A stretch of 38,882 bases of DNA from positions 1 to 38,882 of IMG/VR virus record IMGVR_UViG_3300027782_000166. The stretch is one strand, 5' to 3'. This DNA is from a virus. This document shows positions 2 through 35,579 of this stretch, piece by piece (position 1 is the stretch's first letter; the number at the start of each line of letters is the position of its first letter). The notes under the pieces were generated by a model. It was not told where the DNA came from. It searched no databases and saw only the letters and a program-made list of their open reading frames with translations. The position numbers and the translations under genes are program-made.

Positions 2-718
2 AACAGATTGTTCACAGCCATGCAATTTCCAAAGAATTACTTTAATGTCGAAGATGCTTCCGTAACCAAAATCACACTATCTGCCCAAGATATTAGAGTT
101 GCAAGACTTATTGAAAGACTTCAAGCTCCTTATGAAGATGCCATGTGGGAAGTAGCCGATAGACACCTAAAACTCCTTGGCTATCCAGAGGAACTTTATT
201 CAGACTTGGCAGTAAAAATGACTCCTCCATCAGAGTGGAGAGAATTAAGCAGAGCCGAAATCACAAGCGCAAGAATTCAAAATGCTGGAGCATTGAAGTC
301 TGGTAATCTTATGTCAGACTATGACATTCTAAACAAGTGGATGGGCTATAGCGAGAATGAAACAAAACTATACATAGCCAGACTCAAAATGCAGAAAATT
401 GAGGATGCCAAGCTTCAAGTTATTGCACAAAACCCAGCACTACTTGGAGTTGGCATACCATCGGCAGAAGATGAAGAAAAAGATAAACCAGAAATTGGAG
501 CAACACCAGAAGGACCAAATCCAGAATTGGCTCCTCCAGAAGCTGGCCCATCACCAGAAGGCATGCCCCCAGAAGCAGCTAGCCCTACGACATCTACAAC
601 TCAGGGCGTACCTTTACCAGAGCCAACACAAGAAGATATATCCAAGTATGACATGTACATACAATCATACTCATCTGACCAAGATGTTGAACCACTTGAT
701 CAGTATGAATATGAATAA
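2..718 (+). CDS. Portal vertex protein, C-terminal part (T4 gp20-like), cut by window edge
   Basis: The reading frame is open to the left edge (frame starting at base 2), so only the last ~239 residues are seen. The visible part reads like the C-terminal region of T4-type portals: a short NRLFTAMQFPKNYF block, then a helical stretch on the pattern of the conserved portal segment (FxxFIxRLR-like, here RVARLIERL) and a segment with a serine and aspartate before a long helix (MSDYDILNKWMGYSENE). The last ~80 residues are a Pro/Glu/Ala-rich tail without obvious fold. Position fits: in T4-like phages gp20 lies just upstream of the core protein, protease, scaffold and capsid genes, which follow here. 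The portal forms the dodecameric ring at the DNA-packaging vertex. The family call rests on these weak motifs plus gene order. Confidence 0.72.
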   Translation, partial: NRLFTAMQFPKNYFNVEDASVTKITLSAQDIRVARLIERLQAPYEDAMWEVADRHLKLLGYPEELYSDLAVKMTPPSEWRELSRAEITSARIQNAGALKSGNLMSDYDILNKWMGYSENETKLYIARLKMQKIEDAKLQVIAQNPALLGVGIPSAEDEEKDKPEIGATPEGPNPELAPPEAGPSPEGMPPEAASPTTSTTQGVPLPEPTQEDISKYDMYIQSYSSDQDVEPLDQYEYE

Positions 719-719
719 T

Positions 720-1223
720 TTATTGTTGATTTGAGCTTATATTGATTGACATGTCAAACTTGTCCACAATGATCTTAGGGGCTCCAACTATTACATTAAC
801 AAGTCTTCCCTTGTCATTGCGATAAACACTTAATCTTCTAACAGTTTTTTGCAGTTTTATTTCATTGTTTTCATAACTTAAATTTACATTGCAAACCAAG
901 TCGTACATTTCGGTTTTTTCGTCATCATTCACGGTAGAAATTACCAGCTTGCCCGACTCGTTGACTATGTCCCTGCTTGTAAGATTTGCTCCCACTTTTA
1001 TTGGGTTCATTTCAAAAGTTTTGTTTGTCTGATCAAAGTACAAGGTTTTTGAATCCAAAAAACCTAATTTTTTTAAAAATTCTTCCTTGTCCTTAATCAA
1101 CACAATATTTTTACCTTTTATTGCCTCAATCATACAACATGATGTTAAACAAAACATGTTGCTCAAACAACATCCAAGGTTACAAAACCAAAACCAACAA
1201 TTTTTAAGTTTTTGTGTAAGCAT
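720..1223 (-). CDS. Hypothetical protein with Cys-rich hydrophobic N-terminus
   Basis: A 167-aa frame, convergent with the portal gene (1-base gap). I do not recognise the family. The N-terminus (residues ~9-31) is rich in Cys, Phe and Trp and could be a membrane anchor or lipoprotein-like signal. The rest is a mixed alpha/beta soluble domain with charged residues. The start ATG overlaps the 3' end of the upstream gene by 20 bases, which suggests translational coupling; an internal ATG at residue 31 would remove the hydrophobic part and give a fully soluble protein. It is probably expressed with the neighbouring minus-strand gene at 1204-1494. Confidence 0.55.
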   Translation of the reverse strand: MLTQKLKNCWFWFCNLGCCLSNMFCLTSCCMIEAIKGKNIVLIKDKEEFLKKLGFLDSKTLYFDQTNKTFEMNPIKVGANLTSRDIVNESGKLVISTVNDDEKTEMYDLVCNVNLSYENNEIKLQKTVRRLSVYRNDKGRLVNVIVGAPKIIVDKFDMSINISSNQQ

Positions 1224-1494
1224 ATCCTAGTCCGTCTTGTTTTGGGTCTTTTTCACTCAACTTTAATTCATACTTCAGGTTATCTATTTCAGATTTAATG
1301 AATTCATTTTTGTGTTTGAAGTTTTCCAAGAACTCAATACACTCTTTTGTGTACTTCGGGAATATTTCACGGAAAAGATCGGCAGCTATATCAGTTATCT
1401 GCCTCTGCTTGTTGGGAGGAATTTCACTATAAAATGACTTCGCTTGAGAGTCTGTTAAGTTTGATTCCTTTATGTAATCAGCAAATCTTTTCAT
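1204..1494 (-). CDS. Small protein with capsid-targeting-like leader
   Basis: A 96-aa frame with a good ribosome-binding site (GAGGG six bases from ATG). It begins MKRFADYIKES, an amphipathic leader ending in IKE, the same layout as the T4 internal-protein capsid-targeting sequence (MKTYQEFIAE in T4 IPIII as I recall it) that the prohead protease cuts after IxE/LxE. The rest is helical and strongly charged, with no domain I recognise. Inference: an internal head protein cleaved after Glu10. It sits on the opposite strand between the portal gene and the large head protein gene. The alternative is a plain hypothetical regulator. Confidence 0.6.
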   Translation of the reverse strand: MKRFADYIKESNLTDSQAKSFYSEIPPNKQRQITDIAADLFREIFPKYTKECIEFLENFKHKNEFIKSEIDNLKYELKLSEKDPKQDGLGYAYTKT

Positions 1495-3457: not shown

Positions 3458-4123
3458 ATGTCTAATATATTATTAATAGATTGCTGCTTAAATAGTGGAA
3501 TCGAACTGAGCTTGAATGAGTCTTCCGACAGAGGACTCACCAAGTTCAGGGGCAAATTCCAAGAAGCCAACAAAGAAAACAAAAACCGAAGAGTCTATAC
3601 CTACGAGGTTCTAGACGAAAATGTCAGTAAACTCAATGAATGCATTAAAGCCAGAGGTCTCGTCGGTGAACTCGATCACCCCGAAGATTCCATCATTCAC
3701 TTTGAGAAAGCCTCCCATGTAATCACAAAATTATGGTGGGAAGGAAATGTCATGATGGGAGAAGGAGAAATCCTAAACACCCCACACGGCAAAATTCTCA
3801 AAGCTTTAATTAATGATGGTGTCAGAGTTGGCGTTTCTTCAAGAGGCGTTGGCAATGGTAAAGTGAATGAAAACGGCGTTCTAGTTATTAGTGAGTCTTA
3901 CAAGCTAATTACCTTTGATGTCGTTGCCGACCCCTCTACTTACGCTGCCTTCCAGCGTAAAGTTGTAAGTACTAAGGAAAGTAAAGAGAACCTTCCCGAA
4001 GAAAATTACAAAATTCAAGCAAAAAATGAAGTTTTCAAAACTTCTGTAAACAAAGATGCATTAATTGCTTGTTTGGGAAATATGGTAAGTTCAAGGGTTA
4101 AAGACATAACAACTAAACTTTAA
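3458..4123 (+). CDS. Prohead maturation protease, T4 gp21-like
   Basis: 221 aa, close to T4 gp21 length. It carries the family hallmarks: GELDHP with the catalytic histidine (about residue 74), GVSSRG with the catalytic serine (about residue 129), and a following D-V-V-A-D-P-S segment. These are typical of the gp21/herpesvirus-assemblin-fold prohead proteases. The enzyme sits in the prohead core, activates itself, and cuts scaffold, capsid and internal proteins mainly after LxE or IxE, clearing the head before DNA packaging. AAAGGA lies 7 bases upstream of the ATG. Gene order (before scaffold and capsid genes) matches T4. Many proteins in this window carry LxE/IxE sites near their N-termini that could be its substrates. 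Confidence 0.92.
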   Translation: MSNILLIDCCLNSGIELSLNESSDRGLTKFRGKFQEANKENKNRRVYTYEVLDENVSKLNECIKARGLVGELDHPEDSIIHFEKASHVITKLWWEGNVMMGEGEILNTPHGKILKALINDGVRVGVSSRGVGNGKVNENGVLVISESYKLITFDVVADPSTYAAFQRKVVSTKESKENLPEENYKIQAKNEVFKTSVNKDALIACLGNMVSSRVKDITTKL

Positions 4124-5331: not shown

Positions 5332-6243
5332 ATGGAAAACAAAATTTTTGAATCATTAAAAAAAATGCTTCCTGAGAATGAAGTTAAGGAAGTTTCCAGC
5401 GTCATTAGCGAGATGATTGAGAACGCTAAGGACGAAATGGAAAAAGAGTATAATAAGAACCTAGAAGAGGCTTATGCTCAGCTTTCCGGTGAACTCGCTT
5501 CTGCTGAGAAGACAGCTTACGAGGGATACCAAGAAGCTTATGAGATCATCAACGATCTCCGCACTCGCCTAGAAGTTCAAAATCAAGAATTCGACGCTCA
5601 ACTAGAAGAAGGTTACGAAGAAGCCTACCAAATGCTTCTAGCTGAACGCAATTCCAAGAGCCAAGTCGAAGTCGATCTCTACGAAGAGTACGACCAAAAG
5701 CTAGCTGAGATGAAAGCCTATATCGTGGAGAAAGTTGATCAATTCCTCCAATACAAGGGCTCCGAAATCTACGAGCAAGCCAAGAAAGACTTGGTTAACG
5801 ATCCCCGCATCCTTGAACACAAGGTTGCCCTAGACAAGATAGTTAATATCACATCCGACTACTTGAGCGACGAAGACAAATCCTTCGCAACCGCCTCAAA
5901 GATAGAAGAAGCCAGCAAGGCTATCGAGGAACTCCGTGGTCAACTACGCATCATGGAAGCCCGCAACATCAGACTCAGCACAGACAACACCCGTCTAACC
6001 GAGTCCGTTCGCAGAGTTTCCCATAATGTCATCACAGAGGCCGCTAAGCCAGCAGCAGCTGCTGCCAAGAAAACAAAAGTCTTGACAGAGCAGAAAGAAA
6101 GAACCCTGAAAGTAAAGAACGCAAGCGGGAGAGGACATGTAGACACCGAAAATGTTCAAGTCATCGCTGAATTCAACGATAACTCAAACGGTGCAGTTAA
6201 CGATTTGCTCGTTCTTTCAGGTGTGAAGAAATCCAAGAATTAA
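5332..6243 (+). CDS. Prohead scaffold/core protein, T4 gp22-like
   Basis: 303 aa, highly charged, mostly Glu/Lys/Gln/Ala with long heptad-like coiled-coil stretches (residues ~20-160 and ~185-225) and an Ala-rich linker near 240. This is the composition and position expected of the T4-type scaffolding core protein, directly upstream of the major capsid protein and downstream of the prohead protease. Sequence similarity cannot be shown by eye, so identity rests on composition plus gene order. It contains LxE/IxE tripeptides (for example VITE, VLTE) suitable for proteolysis during maturation. A GAGG ribosome-binding site precedes the ATG. C-ending codon bias like the capsid gene implies strong expression. 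Confidence 0.82.
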   Translation: MENKIFESLKKMLPENEVKEVSSVISEMIENAKDEMEKEYNKNLEEAYAQLSGELASAEKTAYEGYQEAYEIINDLRTRLEVQNQEFDAQLEEGYEEAYQMLLAERNSKSQVEVDLYEEYDQKLAEMKAYIVEKVDQFLQYKGSEIYEQAKKDLVNDPRILEHKVALDKIVNITSDYLSDEDKSFATASKIEEASKAIEELRGQLRIMEARNIRLSTDNTRLTESVRRVSHNVITEAAKPAAAAAKKTKVLTEQKERTLKVKNASGRGHVDTENVQVIAEFNDNSNGAVNDLLVLSGVKKSKN

Positions 6244-6264: not shown

Positions 6265-7710
6265 ATGAACGCTAACGCAAGATTTCTAAACGAAGCTAGA
6301 GAAGTAGAAGCAAATTGGTCGAAAACTGGTATTCTCAAGGGCATTGAAGATCCCTTTGTCCGTTCTGCTACAGCAGTTCTTCTTGAGAACCAAAGACTGA
6401 TCAATGAAACTTCCACAGATACTAGCGATGTCGCTCAGTTCAAGAGAATTTCTATTCCTCTTGTTCGTCGTATCTACCCCCAGTTGATCGCAAACAAAAT
6501 TGTTTCCGTTCAACCACTACTCGGACCAACCGGCTTGGTATACTACCTCCGCTTCCGCTATAGCTCCAACAAGGGCTCTATCCGTGGAGCTTCCAACAAC
6601 GGTGGTTTCCCCGGTGATGATGTCAACTCCCTCCAACAGAGAGCATCCGGTGATGCTAATCTTGACATCTTCTACTCCAGCCAGTTCATCCAAAACGAGG
6701 CCACATCAACCTTGGCCCGTGTTGTAAGCGCTGCAACAAACTTCGGTAACCTTGAGCACACCCCAATCCTAGCCGGAACCGTAACCGGAACCGTCTATTA
6801 CAACGGTGTTGCTGCTCAAACCTTCACCGTAAACTCCTCTAGCGTGTTTGTTTTCACAACCATCACCACAGCTTATGCACAAGCTTCCGGCTCCAGCTTG
6901 AACCTCACCACAGGTGAGCTAGTTCTACAGCAAACCGGCACAGCTGGCACAGGCGAGATGTATGTAGTCATAAGCTACGAGTACAACATGGAATGCAACC
7001 AAGATCTCCCCGAAATCAATCTAGTGATTGAATCCGAGGAAATCGCTGCTAAAACCCGTAAGCTCAAGGCTGTATGGTCATATGAGGCTCAACAAGACCT
7101 CCGTAGCCAACACAACCTCGATGCAGAAGCCGAACTAACTGGCGTTCTAGCACAGGAAATTAACCTAGAAATCGACCGTGAAGTTATTCAGGACTTGCGT
7201 AACAACGCCGGTACTGTTGCTGCATGGGATCTAGCCACAGCCCTAGGTGATACAATCAAGGAAAAATACGAAGCTCTATATGTGAAGATCGTTGAGGTCT
7301 CCAATGTAGTCCATCGTAAGACCCTCCGTGGTGGCGCTAACTTCTTGGTCACAAGCCCAGAAGTCGCCTCAATCTTCGAAACAGCCACCGCTGGCTTCGC
7401 TCCCGCTCCTAGCGAGACATTCACCAGCAGCCTAGGCATCCAGTATGTAGGCACCGTAGCTAATCGCTACCGCCTCTATAAAGACCCACTATTCCCAAAT
7501 AACCAAATCCTAATGGGTTACAAGGGCGATAGCTACATGGACAGCGGTTACTTCTACTGCCCATATGTTCCTCTAACACAAACACCAACTGTGCTAGACC
7601 CAGAGAGCTTCTGCCCCCGTAAGGGAATTTTAACTAGGTATGGTAAGAAATTGCTAAGAGAAGGTGCAAAGTTCTATGCAAGGCTATCAATTGCAAATTT
7701 TGTCGTGTGA
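6265..7710 (+). CDS. Major capsid protein, T4 gp23-like
   Basis: 481 aa, 21 bases after the scaffold gene with AAGAGGT before the ATG. Gene order and length fit the HK97-fold major capsid protein of T4-like phages. The N-terminal ~60 residues are helical and include MNANARFLNE and VLLENQ; either LNE or LLE could be the maturation cleavage site (T4 gp23 loses its N-terminal 65 residues at an LxE-type site). Further on, PQLIANKIVSVQPLLGPTG matches the conserved 'IVGVQPMTGPTG' region of gp23 homologues. A Ser/Thr/Gly-rich beta segment (about 165-235) could be an inserted surface domain. Codon use is the most GC-biased in the window, as expected for the most abundant virion protein. Confidence 0.92.
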   Translation: MNANARFLNEAREVEANWSKTGILKGIEDPFVRSATAVLLENQRLINETSTDTSDVAQFKRISIPLVRRIYPQLIANKIVSVQPLLGPTGLVYYLRFRYSSNKGSIRGASNNGGFPGDDVNSLQQRASGDANLDIFYSSQFIQNEATSTLARVVSAATNFGNLEHTPILAGTVTGTVYYNGVAAQTFTVNSSSVFVFTTITTAYAQASGSSLNLTTGELVLQQTGTAGTGEMYVVISYEYNMECNQDLPEINLVIESEEIAAKTRKLKAVWSYEAQQDLRSQHNLDAEAELTGVLAQEINLEIDREVIQDLRNNAGTVAAWDLATALGDTIKEKYEALYVKIVEVSNVVHRKTLRGGANFLVTSPEVASIFETATAGFAPAPSETFTSSLGIQYVGTVANRYRLYKDPLFPNNQILMGYKGDSYMDSGYFYCPYVPLTQTPTVLDPESFCPRKGILTRYGKKLLREGAKFYARLSIANFVV

Positions 7711-9777: not shown

Positions 9778-10560
9778 GTGAATAATAATATATTTAGAAT
9801 CATTTTGGTTGTTATATTGATGTTTACTGGGGCGGTAAGTTTGGCTCAGTTTAGACCTACTATGCCTCCTCATCCTCCGCAACCTGCTCCCATGCGTCCT
9901 CCTGTGAGTATAGGAGGGTTTTCTGGTCAAATAGGTGCATCTGGAGCTATGGGAATGGGTGGGATGAGTGGCGGGATGTCCGGTATGGGTGGTGGTATGT
10001 CCGGTATGGGTGGTGGTATGTCCGGTATGGGTGGTGGTATGATGGGTATGGGTGGTGGTATGATGGGTATCGGTGGTGGTATGGGCGGCATGGGTGGTGG
10101 TATGATGGGTATGGGTGGTGGTATGATGGGTATGGGTGGTGGTATGATGGGTATGGGTGGCATGGGTGGTGGAGCAGGTGGAAATAACAATCCGTATGGC
10201 GCATATATTCCGGGGAATGTTATTAGGCCTTCGGGTCCGGGTGGCCCATATTCTATAATTCCAATACAGCCCGGATATATGATTGGACAGCAAGGTGGAG
10301 CGAGTGGATTTGGTTTTAGTGGTGGACAACTTGGCATGAGTGGTATGGGAATGAGTGGTATGGGAATGAGTGGTATGGGAATGGGTGGTGGTATGGGAAT
10401 GAGTGGTATGGGAATGAGCGGTATGGGCATGAGCGGTATGGGCATGAGCGGTATGGGAATGAGTGGTATGGGTGGTGGACAATTTGGTTTAGGTGGGTTT
10501 AGTGGTGGTGGGTTTGGTGGTGCGAAGGGTTTTGGTTTTAATGGAGGTTTTGGTTTGTGA
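9778..10560 (+). CDS. Secreted Gly/Met-repeat protein
   Basis: 260 aa from GTG 9778, preceded by GGAGG at 7 bases. Residues 1-23 are a signal peptide (hydrophobic core RIILVVILMFTGAVSLA, likely cleavage after SLA). A Pro-rich segment follows (about 28-43), then two blocks of short repeats: GMSGMGG / GMMGMGG units (about 60-130) and GMGMSGM units (about 185-240), and a Gly/Phe-rich C-terminus. It has no Cys, so it is not a metallothionein. Met- and Gly-rich low-complexity repeats are unusual for a phage protein; possible roles are a metal-binding, adhesive or phase-separating extracellular protein. It overlaps the next gene by four bases (GTGA), so the pair is translationally coupled. Confidence 0.82.
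   Translation: MNNNIFRIILVVILMFTGAVSLAQFRPTMPPHPPQPAPMRPPVSIGGFSGQIGASGAMGMGGMSGGMSGMGGGMSGMGGGMSGMGGGMMGMGGGMMGIGGGMGGMGGGMMGMGGGMMGMGGGMMGMGGMGGGAGGNNNPYGAYIPGNVIRPSGPGGPYSIIPIQPGYMIGQQGGASGFGFSGGQLGMSGMGMSGMGMSGMGMGGGMGMSGMGMSGMGMSGMGMSGMGMSGMGGGQFGLGGFSGGGFGGAKGFGFNGGFGL
9955..10475 (+). repeat. Short tandem repeats encoding Gly-Met units
   Basis: Two clusters (about 9955-10165 and 10330-10475) of 15-24-base units, such as GGTATGGGTGGTGGTATG and GGTATGGGAATGAGT, separated by unique sequence. They probably expand and contract by slippage or recombination; all changes in multiples of three keep the frame. Confidence 0.85.
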
Positions 10561-11995: not shown

Positions 11996-12003
11996 TATAT
12001 AAA
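11996..12003 (+). promoter_or_regulatory. Candidate late promoter box (TATATAAA)
   Basis: This T4-late-like -10 box ends 5 bases before the ATG of the tagged metallopeptidase gene. No ribosome-binding site fits, so a transcript from here would be nearly leaderless. AT-rich chance matches are common, so this is tentative. Confidence 0.35.
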
Positions 12004-12008
12004 GTACT

Positions 12009-12668
12009 ATGAAAAAATTTACTGATTGGTTATTTGAGCAGATTGACATGTCTGTCATAGGGACAGAAAATGTAATTGATAAGATATCTTCTAACTACGA
12101 CAAGGCAAAGATAGCTATAGATTTAGTAAGGAAATATGATCAGACATTACCTCCGCAGTCTAAATTATTGTTAGACATAAGTACGGTAGCGCCTTTAAGC
12201 AAGAATGTCTATGGGCTTTACAATTCAACTGAAAATACCAACATATTAGGACAAGAGGTAGAGCAGAAAATGGCTTTACGATTTGGCAAACAGGTTTGGG
12301 ACAAATATAAAGAGAAGCTAGAGCATTTACCTTTGGCGGTTTTGAAAAAGCAATTAAAAGCTTATCCAGAGATTGACTTAAATAAAATCAAGACATCAAG
12401 TATTATCAATGTTAATATTAATAGAAATAGGCAAGATTGGATGGGGAAGCCGAATGCAGATGTGTTGGCGGTTTTGGAGATAGCAAGTACAATAGTTCAT
12501 GAGGCTACGCATGCTATGGATGTGAAGAATGGGGTGAATCCTACGGAGGACAGGGCTGTAGCAGCTGAAAAGAAGTTCAAGGAATGGGTGTATGCTAACA
12601 TTAAGACATTGGCGACTGATCCTCTGTTAAAGGGATTAGGGATTGAATCAATTGCAGCTGGCCCCTGA
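12009..12668 (+). CDS. Zincin-type metallopeptidase with capsid-targeting-like leader
   Basis: 219 aa. The N-terminus MKKFTDWLFEQ is an amphipathic leader ending in LFE, matching the LxE cut site of T4-type prohead proteases. Residues 160-190 hold the zinc-peptidase motif HEATH (H164, E165, H168), with E180 or E187 placed as a possible third ligand. The middle domain (about 20-150) is not recognised. Inference: an enzyme packed inside the capsid, trimmed after Glu10 and delivered into the host with DNA, where it could cleave a host protein. The upstream region has TATATAAA 5 bases before the ATG and no Shine-Dalgarno. The alternative is a cytoplasmic phage protease whose leader resembles the tag by chance. 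Confidence 0.75.
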   Translation: MKKFTDWLFEQIDMSVIGTENVIDKISSNYDKAKIAIDLVRKYDQTLPPQSKLLLDISTVAPLSKNVYGLYNSTENTNILGQEVEQKMALRFGKQVWDKYKEKLEHLPLAVLKKQLKAYPEIDLNKIKTSSIINVNINRNRQDWMGKPNADVLAVLEIASTIVHEATHAMDVKNGVNPTEDRAVAAEKKFKEWVYANIKTLATDPLLKGLGIESIAAGP

Positions 12669-13126: not shown

Positions 13127-13744
13127 TTAAGCAACCTTATTGCCTCTAGCTCTTAGATCAGCATATAGTCTAGCTTGATCTTCTCTGCTTAGATTTTTCA
13201 TGATATCTTGAATTTGTTGCATAGCACCGCTAACTTGGCCGACTCTTTGTCCAGCCTCTTGTGAGCCGATTCCACCCATGCCTTGTAGTCTTTGGGCAGC
13301 TGCTTTCTCATGTCCGAGAGCAGCCATTTTTTGTCTCATACCTTCACGGCCATGGCCATACTCGTATCCGAGTTCACCAGCTTTGGAAACATCAGAACCG
13401 TATTGAGCAACTTTAGCTGCCTTGTCGGCAACATAATCCATACCTTTACCGGCCACTTTTCCGATAGCGCCCAAGGTATCCTTGGTTACATTGGCAAAGC
13501 TTGATCCGACTTTGCTTGCAGCATCGCTAGCTAGTTTGCCACCTATTGATCTGGCTGCTCCCATGGCTCCACCGGCTTTTCTAGCAAGAGCAGAAACCCA
13601 AGCTGGTGCTAAAATTTCATGGAGTTGTTCTGGGGTGATATGTCCTTGTTCAGAAATTACTGTGTTGATTTGGTTTGCTGCTTCGTTGTAGTCAAAGTTT
13701 TCAACAATTCTGTTTTCTACATATTCTAGAAATGATTTGGCCAT
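13127..13744 (-). CDS. Ala/Gly-rich protein with capsid-targeting-like leader
   Basis: 205 aa from ATG 13744 (GGAG 9 bases upstream). It starts MAKSFLEYVENRIVEN, an amphipathic leader with an IVE site at 13-15 and a second ISE at about 45-47, matching the IxE cut rule. Residues 50-130 are rich in Ala, Gly and Lys with small-residue helices (ALARKAGGAMGAARSIGGK), resembling amphipathic or membrane-active segments. The C-terminus is basic and helical. No family is recognised. It is a candidate internal head protein; a membrane-active ejection protein is an alternative. Confidence 0.72.
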   Translation of the reverse strand: MAKSFLEYVENRIVENFDYNEAANQINTVISEQGHITPEQLHEILAPAWVSALARKAGGAMGAARSIGGKLASDAASKVGSSFANVTKDTLGAIGKVAGKGMDYVADKAAKVAQYGSDVSKAGELGYEYGHGREGMRQKMAALGHEKAAAQRLQGMGGIGSQEAGQRVGQVSGAMQQIQDIMKNLSREDQARLYADLRARGNKVA

Positions 13745-16018: not shown

Positions 16019-16204
16019 TTATTTTTTTGGTTTTTTAATTGGTGGATTATCTGTGGTGTAGGGCAGATCAAGTTTTTTCTTGTTTTTACATTTAAAATCA
16101 GACATAGCTCCCCAAACTTGAAAATTTGGATTATTTAAATCTTTGCATCCAACGATGGCGTATCCACCAGCCATTTCTGTTAACCATTTTTTAAATGTTT
16201 TCAT
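16019..16204 (-). CDS. Short protein with capsid-targeting-like leader (61 aa)
   Basis: The start is ATG 16204, giving MKTFKKWLTEMAGG, the clearest match to the T4 tag format (MKTYQEFIAE): leader then LTE. The remainder is a 47-residue Lys-rich segment with two Cys and a Pro-rich end. It is convergent with the stator-cassette gene (1-base gap) and divergent from the gene at 16222 with only 17 bases between the two starts. Both have a TATATA box just upstream of their ATG; no Shine-Dalgarno is seen. It is a candidate internal head protein or a decoy substrate. Confidence 0.65.
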   Translation of the reverse strand: MKTFKKWLTEMAGGYAIVGCKDLNNPNFQVWGAMSDFKCKNKKKLDLPYTTDNPPIKKPKK

Positions 16205-16221
16205 ACTAAGATATATACCAT

Positions 16222-16512
16222 ATGCAATTAAGTTTTTATGATTGGCTTCATATAAAAGAAGCAAGCGGTACGATGGGAACACCGGGAACTGATCCGGCAG
16301 AGCCGACACCAACTGGTTCTGCTCCGAAGAACAAGGTTACATACCCCGGAAATGCTGGTTCAGGGGGTGGAGAGGGCAAAGTAGACCAGCCTAAAGCTGC
16401 TGGATGCTCTGGTGGTCCTTGTCCTCCTAGAAGTCCATCATCTCCTCGACCAAGTGGAGGAGGAGGAACCGCATCTGTTCAAGCTACAACGGCTGGGGCA
16501 CCCGCTAAATAA
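16222..16512 (+). CDS. Low-complexity protein with capsid-targeting-like leader
   Basis: 96 aa. The leader MQLSFYDWLHIKEASG is amphipathic and ends in IKE, fitting IxE cleavage. The rest is Gly/Pro/Ser/Thr/Ala-rich and probably disordered, with a CSGGPC segment. No domain is recognised. Divergent, by 17 bases, from another tagged gene at 16019-16204, so the shared spacer must hold both promoters (a TATATA box is present). It overlaps the 3' end of the convergent gene at 16479-16862 by 34 bases. Confidence 0.6.
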   Translation: MQLSFYDWLHIKEASGTMGTPGTDPAEPTPTGSAPKNKVTYPGNAGSGGGEGKVDQPKAAGCSGGPCPPRSPSSPRPSGGGGTASVQATTAGAPAK

Positions 16513-16862: not shown

Positions 16863-16867
16863 AGTTG

Positions 16868-17452
16868 GTGGGAATAAATAAAGCCAATAAGAAAGAAGTG
16901 TACAAAAAGATCAACCCAGAATCAATTAAAATCTGGTTGCCTGAAGTGCAACAAAAAACGCATTTTAGTTGTGGGGCGGCGGTGGTACATTCTATTTGTG
17001 CTTATTATGGCTTGGGATTGGATTCTCACTATGACTATTTTGCTTATTTAGAGACAGACGAAACTTACGGTACTTCTCCTAATAAAATTGCAACATATTT
17101 TAAATCTGTGGGAATTTTTTGCAAGCTTGAATATGACATGACTATAAGTGTTTTGTGTTCTGAATTACAAAAACGCAGGCCGGTTATTTTGGCATTACAA
17201 GCGTATGGTTTTAGTAAACAATACAAAAATACTGGAAGTGGTCATTATGTTGTAGCCATAGGTTTTGATAAAAAGAACATATTCTTTGAAGACCCTTGGT
17301 TAAATTGTATGCATGGATATATTCCAAAATCTGAGCTTTTGTCAAGGTGGCATGATTTAGATGTTAATGATAAATACCACAATCAACTAGGTATAATTGC
17401 TTGGAAAAATGCCAAGCCTTTTTATCTTAATAGTGCTAAAAAGATACCTTAA
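16868..17452 (+). CDS. C39-type papain-fold peptidase-like protein
   Basis: 194 aa. There is no ATG near the start: GTG 16868 or TTG 16865 opens the frame (an in-frame TAG lies immediately before), or GTG at codon 11. The cysteine-peptidase core is clear: LPEVQQKTHFSCGAA with the catalytic Cys (about 35), SGHYVVAIGFD with His (about 126), and EDPW with Asp (about 142). These match peptidase C39 (as in bacteriocin-processing domains and standalone C39-like proteins). No membrane helix or ABC domain is attached, so this is a standalone domain. It overlaps the endonuclease gene's end by 4 bases. Confidence 0.78.
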   Translation: MGINKANKKEVYKKINPESIKIWLPEVQQKTHFSCGAAVVHSICAYYGLGLDSHYDYFAYLETDETYGTSPNKIATYFKSVGIFCKLEYDMTISVLCSELQKRRPVILALQAYGFSKQYKNTGSGHYVVAIGFDKKNIFFEDPWLNCMHGYIPKSELLSRWHDLDVNDKYHNQLGIIAWKNAKPFYLNSAKKIP

Positions 17453-18502: not shown

Positions 18503-18527
18503 CCTGCTTGGATTGATTCCAAGCAGG
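18503..18527 (+). terminator. Rho-independent terminator after 18146-18481
   Basis: The stem CCTGCTTGG/CCAAGCAGG with a 7-base loop is followed by the T-rich CATTTCTCTTTT. It separates the small structural gene from the mutase gene downstream. Confidence 0.85.
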
Positions 18528-18545
18528 CATTTCTCTTTTAAGTAT

Positions 18546-19655
18546 ATGAAAAGCTACCTTGTCGTTGGCTGTGGATTTTACGGGGCTGTATTTTCTAGGA
18601 TTCTTGCAGAAGCAGGATATAAAGTAGATTTAATTGATAAAAGAAAACATATTGCTGGAAACTGCTATACAGAAAAAATAAGCAACATACCTGTTCACAA
18701 ATATGGACCACATGCATTCCATACTAATTCTCTAGAAGTATGGGATTTCCTCAGAAGATTTTCAAATTTCAACGATTTTAAATTGCAAATTAAAGTCAAC
18801 CATAAAAATAACATTTATTCATTTCCAATAAATTTATTTACTCTGAATCAGCTATACGGAGTCACAACACCATCAGAAGCTAAAAATGTGATCCGTAAAA
18901 TGAAAAAGACATGTAAAAGTAAAAACTTTGCCAGTTACATTTTGTCTAATTTAGGAAGTGAGATTTATAATATTTTTTTTGAAGGATACACAAAAAAACA
19001 ATGGAATATAAATCCATCAGAATTATCTGATACTGTGGCTAAAAGAATTCCGATACGGTATGAATATAACGACTATTATTTTAATGATAAGTATCAAGGT
19101 ATTCCGATAGGTGGATATACCAATTTGTTTGAAAACATGTTAGATCATAAAAACATAAACATAATTTTGAACTGTGATTTTTTTGAAAACAGGAAAGACT
19201 TTGAGAAGTCTTATAAAAAAATTGTTTATAGTGGTAAGATAGACGAATTATTTGATTACAAATATGGTTTATTAGAATACAGGTCTCTTAGGTTTGAAAC
19301 CAAGAAATTTGCAAAAACATTTCAGGGTAATTCAATTATCAATTTTACAGAAGAGAATGTTCCATATACCAGAATTGTAGAGCATAAATATTTTGCACAG
19401 TTAAATCAGGAAAAAACAGTTGTCACATATGAGTTTCCTGATGACTATGATGACAAAAAAATACCTTTTTATCCAATGCCAACAGAAAAAAATAAAATTA
19501 TTTATGCAAAATATAAGAACGATTCTGAATTATTAGATAAGTACATTGTAGGCGGTAGATTAGGTAGATATATTTATTTGAATATGGATCAAGTTGTTGC
19601 GATGTCTTTAAAAGATGCGAAGGAAGAAATATGCAAGAAGAAGAAAAACAAATAG
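18546..19655 (+). CDS. glf: UDP-galactopyranose mutase
   Basis: 369 aa, the normal length. The N-terminal FAD-binding motif is VVGCGFYGAVFSRILAE with the acidic end at the end of strand 2 (DLIDKRKHIAGNCYTE). Further on are HKYGPHAFHT, the conserved EGYTKKQW loop, and the C-terminal GGRLGRYIYLNMDQ typical of this family. The enzyme interconverts UDP-galactopyranose and UDP-galactofuranose, the donor for galactofuranosyl glycans. In a phage it probably supplies or alters a host-type surface glycan or modifies virion glycans; two glycosyltransferase-like genes lie in the same window. ATG 18546 is taken as start because the FAD motif follows at once; the ribosome-binding site is weak. Confidence 0.93.
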   Translation: MKSYLVVGCGFYGAVFSRILAEAGYKVDLIDKRKHIAGNCYTEKISNIPVHKYGPHAFHTNSLEVWDFLRRFSNFNDFKLQIKVNHKNNIYSFPINLFTLNQLYGVTTPSEAKNVIRKMKKTCKSKNFASYILSNLGSEIYNIFFEGYTKKQWNINPSELSDTVAKRIPIRYEYNDYYFNDKYQGIPIGGYTNLFENMLDHKNINIILNCDFFENRKDFEKSYKKIVYSGKIDELFDYKYGLLEYRSLRFETKKFAKTFQGNSIINFTEENVPYTRIVEHKYFAQLNQEKTVVTYEFPDDYDDKKIPFYPMPTEKNKIIYAKYKNDSELLDKYIVGGRLGRYIYLNMDQVVAMSLKDAKEEICKKKKNK

Positions 19656-19963
19656 AAGTACAAAATTCTGAATTATTTTTACCAGAAGACGATCCAATCC
19701 CAGAGGGCAAAGTAAAATTCGAAACCAGAATTAAGTTGCATTCTAATGGCTCTGTGGAGCGGGAAATTTGGATAAGTGATCAAAAATTTGATTGGTCGGT
19801 TGACATCACATCATTCCACGAAGCTGTAAGAATGGGTTCAATGTATAAAAAAGCGGTACAGCAAGATATTGTTAAGCATTTTGTTAATAGTGTTTCTGAT
19901 TTTTTGGGAAGAAAGGTCACTATGAAAGAGGTCAATGAGGCCACTAAGCGTGGTTGGATTTAG
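19631..19963 (+). CDS. Hypothetical protein, 110 aa
   Basis: It overlaps the end of glf by 25 bases and is convergent by 4 bases with the trypsin-like protease gene, which argues for coupled expression with glf. Acidic N-terminus; the central part (FETRIKLHSNGSVEREIWIS) looks like a small beta domain, then a helical C-terminus (KKAVQQDIVKHFVNSVSDFL). No family is recognised. Confidence 0.6.
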   Translation: MQEEEKQIEVQNSELFLPEDDPIPEGKVKFETRIKLHSNGSVEREIWISDQKFDWSVDITSFHEAVRMGSMYKKAVQQDIVKHFVNSVSDFLGRKVTMKEVNEATKRGWI

Positions 19964-20748
19964 TTGACGATCTCAATCATTTTTGACCATAACATGAAGT
20001 TCATGATTTCTGGCACTTTGAAATCTTGATAGTCATCATTATTTATAAATCTATTTCTTAGCATATCTTGCATCAATTCAATCGGTTTATAAAATGATAT
20101 GTCGTATACTGGGAATTTAGTATCACCGTAATTAGCGTTTTTCATGCTATTAGCAATTCCAACTACTTTGTTTTCGTAAAATAAAGGACCACCAGAATCT
20201 CCAAAAACGATATTGATTGATGTCCTGTAAGATAAAATTTGTTTGGTAGTTTCTGACCTTAAAACTCCAGTAAGTTTACCTTCAGCAAATCTGGCTGGTT
20301 CTCCTAGAGCGTGACCTACTGCAAATAAAGCATCTCTTATTTTTGGTTTATATTTTTGATTTAAATCAACGCATCGCATTTGATTTGGGCTTAGAAAAAA
20401 AACAATTGACAAATCATTTGATCCATCTATGGCAGCTACTACGCCTTTGAAATTTTTGTATTTTTCAAAGTTACCTTGATCGTCAAATTCAGAACATTTT
20501 ACTAATAAATCTGTAGATTTTAATATATGCTCGCAAGAAAAAACAACATTGCAATAGCAATTTATAGATTCTATTAGACTTGAATTAACAATAAAACCTG
20601 TACCAGATGCAGGAGATTTTGTAGATTCTATAAGCACAGTCGGTTTCAAACATTTTTGAATAAACTGGTTATTATCATTATTAGCGTTTCCAAGCAGACA
20701 AGACATGGAAATGAAAAAGGTAATTGAAATAGTTAAAAAAGTTTTCAT
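19960..20748 (-). CDS. Secreted trypsin-like (S1 family) serine protease
   Basis: 262 aa. Signal peptide residues 1-23 (MKTFLTISITFFISMSCLLGNA), so export to the periplasm or beyond is expected. Catalytic triad positions: His74 in SCEHIL, Asp112 in NDLSIVFF, Ser185 in FGDSGGPLF, the order of chymotrypsin/HtrA-like S1 proteases. No PDZ domain follows. Cys pairs (about 64, 66, 72, 86) may form disulfides. This is unusual in phages; roles could be virion-independent digestion of a host envelope protein or immunity-protein cleavage. It is convergent with 19631-19963 and divergent from 20781 with about 30 bases between. Confidence 0.86.
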   Translation of the reverse strand: MKTFLTISITFFISMSCLLGNANNDNNQFIQKCLKPTVLIESTKSPASGTGFIVNSSLIESINCYCNVVFSCEHILKSTDLLVKCSEFDDQGNFEKYKNFKGVVAAIDGSNDLSIVFFLSPNQMRCVDLNQKYKPKIRDALFAVGHALGEPARFAEGKLTGVLRSETTKQILSYRTSINIVFGDSGGPLFYENKVVGIANSMKNANYGDTKFPVYDISFYKPIELMQDMLRNRFINNDDYQDFKVPEIMNFMLWSKMIEIVN

Positions 20749-21650: not shown

Positions 21651-21851
21651 ATGATATCTTTCAAGCAATGGTTCCAAGAATCTTATTATGGCCAAGTTGT
21701 TCAAACAAACTATGTGAATGATGAGTTCATGCAGACGAGAGTGAATAGTGGTCGAATGGCAAGGGTTGCCTTGAAAGATATGAGTAATAATAAAGCAGAT
21801 TGCAATTACCTAAAAGTTGGTTGTAAAAAAAGCGACAAAAAGGGTAAATAA
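21651..21851 (+). CDS. Short protein with capsid-targeting-like leader (66 aa)
   Basis: It begins MISFKQWFQESYY, with FQE near the usual cut position (Phe instead of Leu/Ile). The remaining ~55 residues are polar with a basic Cys-containing end (CNYLKVGCKKSDKKGK). No domain is recognised. Seven bases downstream of the previous gene's stop. It is a weaker member of the tagged set because the P3 residue is Phe. Confidence 0.55.
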   Translation: MISFKQWFQESYYGQVVQTNYVNDEFMQTRVNSGRMARVALKDMSNNKADCNYLKVGCKKSDKKGK

Positions 21852-25503: not shown

Positions 25504-26571
25504 ATGTCACAGCAAGATGAGCCATGTTTTTTGCTTCCATATACGAAAGAAGATGTTCTATCTCCTTTGTCAGTTTCCCAGTATTTAGGATGGCATATAT
25601 CAAGTTTTAAACTTAATGAGGTATGGTCTCTAACAAAAGGTGAAAATGTAACTGTGGCGGTAATTGATACAGGTTGTGATCTCAATCATGTTGATTTAAA
25701 AGAAAATATTGTAGAAGGCAAAAATTTTGTTGAAGATGGCTTACCTCCAGAGGATTCCTCCGAGCATGGAACTCATGTCGCAGGAATTATAGCTGCCTGC
25801 GATAATGATGAAGGAATTGTAGGCATAGCCCCTAAAACTAAAATCATGCCATTAAAAGTATTAAATTCTTTTGGCATGGGGACCAAAGAAGTCGTAGCAA
25901 AAGCTATTGTTTATGCTGTCGATAATGGAGCAGATTTAATCACCATGAGTTTAGGCAGCAGAACTGCCATTGATGCCGTAAGGGAAGCAATTATCTACGC
26001 AAATTCCAAGAAAGTAACATGCTTTGTTGCTGCCGGTAATGCTGGTTCAACTAAACAGCTTTTATATCCAGCAGCATATTCAGAATGTATTTCTATTGGT
26101 GCTGTTGATGAAAATAGCATGAGAGCAGATTTCAGTTGTACTGGTCCAAATTTAGATTTTGTAGCACCCGGAGTAAAAATCTATAGTACAGTTCCTAAAA
26201 ATTCATATGCATTTCTCAGCGGAACATCTATGAGTTGCCCATTTGCTGTAGGAACTGCTGCTTTAGTTTTATCGCAACGAAGGAAAATAGACCCTACAGC
26301 TAAGATTGGCATTGATGAATACAGACAAATCCTAAAATCTAATACATTGACAATAAAAAATTTAGACCTTAATTTGGACCAACAAGGAGCTAGATTTTGG
26401 CAAGGAATGGGAATCATAAACCCATCACAATTTGAAGAATGGGTTCAATATAGAACAGCAGATGGAATAAAACAAAAAATCATAAAAATAAAAGATGAAA
26501 TATCCATGATTAAGGATGAAAAAATAAAAGAAGATATTTATAAATTCATAGAGCTTATTAAATCAAAATAA
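25504..26571 (+). CDS. Subtilisin-like serine protease (S8)
   Basis: 355 aa with the complete catalytic set: Asp55 in VIDTG, His88 in HGTHVAGI, oxyanion Asn179 in AAGNAG, and Ser242 in GTSMSCP. No signal peptide and no recognisable propeptide, so it probably acts in the cytosol or virion, or the catalytic domain is made ready-folded. The C-terminal ~90 residues extend beyond the usual core and end in a Lys-rich coiled helix. The start ATG lies at the end of a TATATA-containing 28-base divergent spacer. It is convergent with the McsA-like gene by 9 bases. A subtilisin free in a phage genome is uncommon. Confidence 0.9.
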   Translation: MSQQDEPCFLLPYTKEDVLSPLSVSQYLGWHISSFKLNEVWSLTKGENVTVAVIDTGCDLNHVDLKENIVEGKNFVEDGLPPEDSSEHGTHVAGIIAACDNDEGIVGIAPKTKIMPLKVLNSFGMGTKEVVAKAIVYAVDNGADLITMSLGSRTAIDAVREAIIYANSKKVTCFVAAGNAGSTKQLLYPAAYSECISIGAVDENSMRADFSCTGPNLDFVAPGVKIYSTVPKNSYAFLSGTSMSCPFAVGTAALVLSQRRKIDPTAKIGIDEYRQILKSNTLTIKNLDLNLDQQGARFWQGMGIINPSQFEEWVQYRTADGIKQKIIKIKDEISMIKDEKIKEDIYKFIELIKSK

Positions 26572-29999: not shown

Positions 30000-30641
30000 T
30001 TACTTCTTCTTATTTTTATTCATGTTCCTGTAAGTTTCTTCCATAGACATCATTCCTGTGACACTTTTCAAGAAAGATTTGGGCTTTTTATTCGCAACAG
30101 CTTCTCCCATATCCTTAAGCTTTTTAACCATATCGTCTTCGTCTTCCATATCGTCTTCGCCTTCCATGTCTTCTTCATCTTCGTCTTCTTCGTCTTCCAT
30201 GTCTTCCATGTCTTCCATGTCTTCTTCGTCTTCGTCTTCTTCGTCTTCCATGTCTTCTTCGTCTTCCATGTCTTCTTCGTCTTCTTCATCTTCGTCTTCC
30301 ATGTCTTCTTCGTCTTCGTCTTCCATGTCTTCCATGTCTTCCATGTCTTCCATGTCTTCCATGTCTTCCATGTCTTCTTCGTCTTCGTCTTCTTCGTCCT
30401 CCATGTCTTCCATGTCTTCGTCTTCTTCGTCTTCCATATGCTTCATATCGTCTGAGTGATCAGCTGAATCCTTGTCATACGGGGTATCATCATCAGTCTC
30501 TTCGGAATCAACATCTTCTTCAGATGGTAATTCTTCTCCAATAACTGCCCCCTTGATACCTAATGAATGTGGTGTTTTGATACCGAGATTAACTGTACCA
30601 AGTGTTTCATTTAGCATTTTCCACTTTTCATAACTTATCAT
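30000..30641 (-). CDS. Highly acidic protein with capsid-targeting-like leader (prohead-core-like)
   Basis: 213 aa. It starts MISYEKWKMLNET, an amphipathic leader with LNE as the possible cut site. Residues ~45-165 are Asp/Glu runs with regular Met (EDMEDMEDEE units), giving a net charge far below -50. The C-terminal ~45 residues return to a basic, helical segment (KSFLKSVTGMMS...). T4 has an acidic prohead-core protein, gp67, with a similar acidic run; this is an analogy in composition only. GGAG lies 8 bases before ATG 30641. It ends at the strong terminator 29942-29985. Confidence 0.76.
   Translation of the reverse strand: MISYEKWKMLNETLGTVNLGIKTPHSLGIKGAVIGEELPSEEDVDSEETDDDTPYDKDSADHSDDMKHMEDEEDEDMEDMEDEEDEDEEDMEDMEDMEDMEDMEDMEDEDEEDMEDEDEEDEEDMEDEEDMEDEEDEDEEDMEDMEDMEDEEDEDEEDMEGEDDMEDEDDMVKKLKDMGEAVANKKPKSFLKSVTGMMSMEETYRNMNKNKKK
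30130..30440 (-). repeat. Tandem repeat encoding Met-Glu-Asp units
   Basis: Repeats of TCTTCCATG and TCTTCGTCT on the plus strand, nine-base units in varied order. Long low-complexity DNA of this sort is prone to length change, always in frame for 9-base units, and it accounts for open frames on the other strand. Confidence 0.85.
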
Positions 30642-34050: not shown

Positions 34051-34287
34051 ATGAAATCATTTACACAATGGGCTGAGAGCAAAAGCCTTAATTTGCCTCT
34101 CGCTGAAAAAACCGCCAGAGCAGGAATTGCTAGCTGGGCTTATCCTGATGGTTATGTTAGAAGCCACTATCCCGGAGGCTATTTTATGCCTATAGCTGCC
34201 GATGCTTTGCAGAAAATGGGTAAAAAGGTTGATGACAAGAATGTTGACCATGGCGGCATTGGGCCTAACACGGCTTTGGATGCTTAA
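34051..34287 (+). CDS. Small protein with capsid-targeting-like leader (78 aa)
   Basis: It starts MKSFTQWAESKSLNLPLAEK with AAGAGG 5-6 bases before the ATG. The leader is longer than the others; LAE at 17-19 is the matching LxE site. The rest is a compact Gly/Tyr-rich domain (AYPDGYVRSHYPGGYF) with a His/Gly-rich end; no family recognised. A candidate internal head protein. A TATAAAG lies directly before the ribosome-binding site. Confidence 0.62.
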   Translation: MKSFTQWAESKSLNLPLAEKTARAGIASWAYPDGYVRSHYPGGYFMPIAADALQKMGKKVDDKNVDHGGIGPNTALDA

Positions 34288-35193: not shown

Positions 35194-35228
35194 ATCAAAG
35201 ACAAGGTTTAAAAAACTTTGTCTTTGAT
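35194..35228. terminator. Terminator between 34726 gene and Nudix gene
   Basis: An imperfect 13-bp stem (ATCAAAGACAAGG and CTTTGTCTTTGAT) with an A/T-rich loop between convergent genes. It overlaps the Nudix stop codon. Poly-T tails are short, so a bidirectional terminator is likely but not strong. Confidence 0.62.
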
Positions 35229-35579
35229 ATGTTTAATTAACCTTCTTGATTTCGGACTTAAAACAATTTTTTTTGAATCACACAAAGAAACCCATTTATA
35301 ATCTTTGTGTTCTTTTGATAAATTGCAATAAAATTCTTTATCAACTTTAACAAAAAATAAAATCAATTCATCTGTCTTTGAATCAATTTTTATATTTTCT
35401 GAGTTTTCTAATTCAAATATATAGCCTGTTTCTTCATATGCTTCTCTATAGGCTGCTGTGGCAAAGCTTTCATTTCTATTTTTTTTGCCTCCCGGCAACT
35501 CCCAAAGATTGTTTTTACTTTTTTGAAGTAACAGAAATGAATTTTTTGTGTAAAAAATCACAAATGATTTTTTCCTCAA
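35208..35579 (-). CDS. Nudix hydrolase
   Basis: 123 aa. The Nudix box fits: GGKKNRNESF...REAYEETGY, that is G-x5-E-x7-R-E-x2-E-E-x-G-x (about residues 30-52). The family hydrolyses nucleoside diphosphates linked to another group. Phage members clear oxidised nucleotides, act on RNA caps or ADP-ribose; the substrate cannot be told here. It overlaps the upstream gene by 4 bases, so coupled to 35576-36121. Confidence 0.92.
   Translation of the reverse strand: MRKKSFVIFYTKNSFLLLQKSKNNLWELPGGKKNRNESFATAAYREAYEETGYIFELENSENIKIDSKTDELILFFVKVDKEFYCNLSKEHKDYKWVSLCDSKKIVLSPKSRRLIKHIKDKVF

Follow-up and report, generated by a model that had tools for sequence, protein, structure and literature searches.

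The window, a virus record of 38,882 bases, holds at 12009..12668 (+) a gene for a putative packaged mini-zincin metallopeptidase, a 219-aa ORF of a 49-protein family that is under purifying selection in relatives. The family gene product is probably an enzyme carried in the particle and injected with the phage DNA, because this zinc-protease-like family bears a T4-type head-loading label. We put at about 0.6 the probability of a T4-style internal head protein: a stand-alone mini-zincin that, with its tag removed, would be ejected with the genome and act in trans, cutting a protein of the host or one injected alongside it. Sequence and structure models support the family, its conservation, the tag, a zincin-like fold and T4-type head genes. 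The family had no name in any library searched, yet it is found in dozens of environmental phage contigs.

Predicted gene product

The preliminary description picked out a leader (MKKFTDWLFE), a HEATH motif (H164-E165-A166-T167-H168) and the downstream residues E180 and E187 in this ORF, and all are there exactly as claimed. The capsid-targeting-like leader takes up residues 1-10 (12009..12038, +), in the same register as in T4 IpII/IpIII. It is followed by a linker, residues 11-26 (12039..12086, +), that is modeled with low confidence (pLDDT < 50 for residues 12-26), and by a putative catalytic core, residues 27-219 (12087..12665, +). The AlphaFold2 model of this core consists of an N-terminal helix, short beta strands and two C-terminal helices, and has zincin structural matches. 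HEATH (H164-H168; 12498..12512, +) lies in helix 150-173, and E180 (12546..12548, +) starts the second C-terminal helix, 180-196, which also contains E187 (12567..12569, +).

The same description considered neither the leader nor the motif strong alone, which is understated once homologues are counted. The pairing of HEATH and leader goes beyond chance, because HExxH is invariant in all 49 proteins, its close relatives are under purifying selection and leader-like starts are enriched at gene starts.

Family, distribution and selection

The first relative was found in LR756511.1, a 595-kb uncultured phage genome (35% identity, E 9e-17). Searching with an I-x-HEATH DNA pattern turned up 33 loci, most of them encoding clear relatives, and an 18-sequence profile gave 56. 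The family comprises 49 distinct full-length proteins, the window protein included, in 40 clusters at 90% identity; members are 29-99% identical (median 48%) and come from viral contigs and huge-phage genomes of up to 595 kb. There was one copy per genome in 6/6 large genomes tested. Single-sequence scans of viral contigs (IMG/VR) and the first two-sequence profile returned no relative, and neither did the bacterial and archaeal genomes (two scans) or plasmids searched. Sequence searches of Pfam, PHROG, NCBIfam, PADLOC and PDB gave no entry covering the family, the matches being sub-threshold or scattered over few members. Among these, Peptidase_M91 (PF14891) resembles the region around HEATH weakly (E 0.058) and was rejected, its 14.2 bits falling below the cut-off of 25 and only 1/18 members matching. 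For 11/12 close pairs dN/dS was 0.03-0.17, with synonymous sites saturated in the twelfth; purifying selection on close relatives is strong.

In nearly all members the protein stands alone, free of multidomain fusion, so processing in cis does not explain the family. This bears on a rather unlikely alternative, a packaged zincin whose substrates would be other cargo packaged with it and not a host protein, as has been proposed for the MPTase domains of polyvalent proteins. Possible substrates are at hand in the many other tagged proteins of the same contigs, and for polyvalent proteins autoprocessing is a favored function of these domains (PMC5512222). Cis processing is nevertheless inapplicable to a protein without fusion partner, and the gene neighborhoods show no constant partner gene adjoining the family gene. 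The alternative also overlaps our preferred explanation, whose substrate covers either a host or a co-injected protein.

A few members have extra parts. In L003:1931-3079 (same as L046) an additional N-terminal part starts YHGT, and in L030:886-1659 (same as L080) one carries a NNPNFQVWGAMS motif; the tag-like stretch is internal in both. Pfam recognized no domain in either the added N-terminal stretch of the L003 fusion or the extension at the C-terminus of L014. A C-G-x-P-x-GFSQKNYC module is inserted between tag and core in L074:1008-1766 and L078:3873-4634.

Catalytic signature

HExxH occurs in 49/49 family proteins, while its middle two residues vary (AT, CT, ST, AR, TT). The residue at +3 after the second His is acidic in 49/49 (E 46, D 3). 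At the E180 position (+12), E or D is found in 48/49, and in L079 the alignment puts a Glu there after an insertion. The E187 position, which precedes an invariant Phe by three residues, holds Glu in 48/49; the sole exception, L072, has Lys with a Glu adjoining. The spacing HExxH-X18-E is that of M1-type Glu-zincins. We favor E187 over E180 as the putative third zinc ligand, because it has this Glu-zincin spacing (H168+19) and is located in the second C-terminal helix, which in the AlphaFold2 model directly follows the active-site helix. E180, likewise conserved in kind (E/D), would be a rival third ligand or a helix cap.

Two further positions are nearly invariant in the family: Thr161, at position -3 relative to H164, and Asn136, close to the preceding strand. 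In Wss1, Thr112 and Asn83 are in similar places, close to the zinc (PMC5557861), and the family residues may be their parallels.

The pattern of conservation also bears on whether the protein is an enzyme at all. A T4-style tag could also bring in a structural protein or one that has lost catalysis, and T4 IPI is noncatalytic, acting through its binding to a restriction enzyme (PMC5512222). It is nonetheless improbable that the packaged protein is non-enzymatic here, a structural component or an inhibitor whose zincin fold is a relic, given that catalytic-type residues are invariant whereas the x-x of HExxH and much else vary.

Predicted fold

Mean AlphaFold2 pLDDT was 83 for the window protein and 79.5 for a relative, L004. 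The best VIA-align match was 3e11 (Acel_2062) for the window protein (Z 8.2 over 106 residues) and Wss1 for L004 (Z 7.3 over 104 residues), although Z values of 7-8 are common by chance. Further matches of the window-protein model were TTHA0227 (6.4), the YbeY family (5.7-6.4), selecase (5.2/4.8), IrrE (4.8) and proabylysin (4.4). The top ten rows were all metal enzymes of zincin-like fold, and the rows after them stood at Z 3.9. The L004 model further matched Acel_2062 (7.0), aminopeptidase N (5.6), YbeY (5.4), TTHA0227 (5.3) and selecase (5.0/4.9), and its first unrelated row was Hsp90, at rank eight with Z 4.8. Foldseek alone gave no significant match in PDB or BFVD (best E 0.59). A zincin-like fold is thus likely but not proven, since Foldseek was non-significant and such Z values are not rare. 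The earlier reading of HEATH as a zinc-protease motif agrees with the invariant HExxH and with this predicted fold.

YbeY structures lie just under the top ranks (Z 5.4-6.4), and one member has a marginal match to TIGR04267 (E 0.014), which suggests considering a HExxH metalloenzyme of other chemistry, either a YbeY-like endoribonuclease or an aKG-HExxH peptide hydroxylase. YbeY has a three-His metal motif with the third His after the HxxxH helix. The family alignment contains no conserved downstream His, and acidic residues are conserved instead; YbeY endoribonuclease was rejected on this count, and we regard other chemistry in general as very improbable.

Capsid-targeting-like leader

T4 IpII and IpIII start with MKTYQEFIAE. 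The first ten residues of IpIII are enough for head incorporation, with residues 4 and 7 serving targeting and 8 and 10 processing, and gp21 cuts after L/I-X-E (PMC9026906). In MKKFTDWLFE the residues F4, W7, L8 and E10 match these targeting and processing residues in register and are conserved in kind. Its L-F-E fits the cut rule, so that a gp21-type cut is predicted after L8-F9-E10. The tag-like leader of the preliminary description is therefore built like a T4 capsid-targeting sequence, and the phage also encodes a T4-type prohead protease. In the family alignment F4 never varies and W7 hardly ever does. In L005, L050 and L065 no Glu follows the tag core immediately, which makes cleavage a less certain prediction for some members than for others.

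Leader-like starts (pattern M.{1,4}F..W[LIVMFA]) were counted in the family contigs at 101/1134 gene starts and at 14/4668 internal Met residues, and [LI]xE followed the tag core in 41/98 tagged versus 141/1010 untagged genes (p 2e-10), a threefold difference. Because family members sit among the tagged genes, common ancestry contributes in part to these counts. There was no rise of [LI]xD or [LI]xK after the tag core in tagged genes.

Head genes and promoter

The window encodes a series of T4-type head proteins, all on the + strand. These are the C-terminal part of a gp20-type portal protein (14..718; PF07230, E 2.8e-10), a gp21-type prohead protease (3458..4123; PF03420, E 2.8e-26; phrog_207, E 4.6e-50) and a gp23-type major capsid protein (6265..7710; PF07068, E 1e-88). 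The gp21-type protease is expected to be the enzyme that removes the tag. Between the protease and capsid genes, in the place of gp22, is a probable prohead core or scaffold protein (5332..6243); its product had no HMM match, and relatives have a similar-looking Glu-rich protein between the same two genes. Gp23 was matched in 22/42 and the S77 protease in 22/42 family records, among them the records of 458, 527 and 595 kb; fragments make up many of those without a match. In 17 contigs a gp23 homologue is located at most 8 genes from the family gene.

This setting raises the question of an accessory prohead maturation protease, delivered by its tag, that would cut core or capsid proteins during assembly and have no host role. 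Such a protease would bear the same tag and sit in the same head-gene neighborhood, and T4 supplies the precedent of a protease acting within the prohead (PMC9026906). The window, however, already contains a gp21-type protease gene. We know of no need for a second prohead protease in T4-type heads, and consider this assignment unlikely.

The TATATAAA box (11996..12003, +), 6-13 bases 5' of the start codon, looks like a T4 late promoter. A TATA box lies at -18..-6 in front of 31/98 tagged and 87/1010 untagged genes, and such T4-late-like boxes would fit late, virion-destined expression. In the window, boxes very near the ATG are found upstream of 12009 (+), 16204 (-), 16222 (+) and 34051 (+); they are so near that the transcripts would be nearly leaderless.

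Other tagged genes

Seven other window genes have capsid-targeting-like leaders: 1204-1494 (-), 13127-13744 (-), 16019-16204 (-), 16222-16512 (+), 21651-21851 (+), 30000-30641 (-), which is mostly acidic EDMED repeats, and 34051-34287 (+). To judge from these leaders, they probably encode further packaged proteins. Several of the leaders end in (L/I)xE (LTE, LNE, IKE, IVE). A C-K-D-x-x-x-PNFQ motif is common to short tagged proteins, namely that of window gene 16019-16204 (-) and others in L036, L037, L044 and L046, and it appears also at the N-terminus of L030. The NUDIX protein of L041:10592-11017 has a leader, whereas the window NUDIX protein (35208-35579) does not; the tag thus seems to be gained by or lost from enzyme domains.

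The window encodes further peptidases, a subtilase (25504-26571, +), a trypsin-like peptidase (19960-20748, -) and a C39-like peptidase (16865-17452, +), as well as a long Gly/Met repeat protein (9778-10560, +) and UDP-galactopyranose mutase (GLF; 18513-19655, +).

Proposed mechanism

For the preferred internal head protein, we infer tag removal, packaging, ejection, zinc-site geometry, catalysis and target as follows. Residues 1-10 would act as the capsid-targeting sequence and bind the prohead core, and the gp21-type protease would then remove the tag at the predicted site. The mature remainder would be trapped in the head alongside the DNA and enter the host on ejection. Zn would be held by H164, H168 and probably E187, with E165 as the general base that activates water, and the mature mini-zincin would work in trans, on either a host protein or one injected along with it. 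A more specific version is possible but doubtful. In it, these injected proteases would form a widespread, conserved class, huge phages of the T4 type would fill their heads with many different tagged enzymes, and the mini-zincin would cut one particular host protein, such as a defence or regulatory factor, within minutes of the onset of infection.

If the internal head protein is as proposed, huge phages own a protease that is ready before any phage gene expression, and the tag becomes a sequence-based predictor of their remaining injected proteins. The known packaged zincins form part of giant multidomain proteins, for which self-processing is among the main proposals; a packaged zincin that stands alone therefore points to action in trans.

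Comparison with known systems

As proposed, the protein would resemble a T4 internal protein in its delivery and a mini-Glu-zincin in its chemistry, and it has sequence hallmarks of both. Those of T4 internal proteins are a tag of ~10 residues, aromatics at 4 and 7, (L/I)xE and T4-type head genes with a gp21-type protease. With IpI, IpII and IpIII the window protein shares the 10-residue leader in the same register, and its phage shares with T4 the portal, gp21 protease and gp23 types. The T4 internal proteins differ in being unrelated small proteins, while the window cargo is a predicted zincin.

In its likely fold and its core size the family resembles the mini-zincins Acel_2062/TTHA0227 (PF06262), proabylysin/selecase and Wss1. 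With Wss1 (T112, N83) it also appears to share the Thr three before HExxH and the Asn on the preceding strand. It differs from the mini-zincins in the absence of HExxHxxGxxD/H, a likely Glu third ligand and the absence of a sequence-level match. The PF06262 motif, as in Acel_2062, is HEXXHXXGXXD (PMC3890501). An Asp-zincin of this kind was rejected for the window protein, whose HEATHAMDVKNGV has Asp at +3 for Gly and Lys/Asn at +5/+6 for Asp.

Packaged zincin domains are known in N4 vRNAP and P1 DdrB (PMC5512222; PMC12633501), and the zincin domain of injected phage proteins is laid out as an N-terminal helix, a three-stranded sheet, an HExxH helix and a Glu helix (PMC5512222). The HExxH helix and the Glu in the next helix, predicted for our family, are common to these polyvalent-protein MPTase domains, and one phage-type MPTase clade shares the acidic residue three after HExxH, although its strand-2 His was not identified in the family. 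A literature search on injected metalloproteases of jumbo phages yielded nothing relevant. In contrast to the MPTase domains, the family proteins are nearly all stand-alone, ~200 aa long, equipped with a capsid-targeting-like tag and encoded by T4-type huge phages. Packaged zincins have been known as domains; judging by its sequence, the family would add a further form of this known type, a stand-alone, capsid-targeted zincin in T4-type huge phages.
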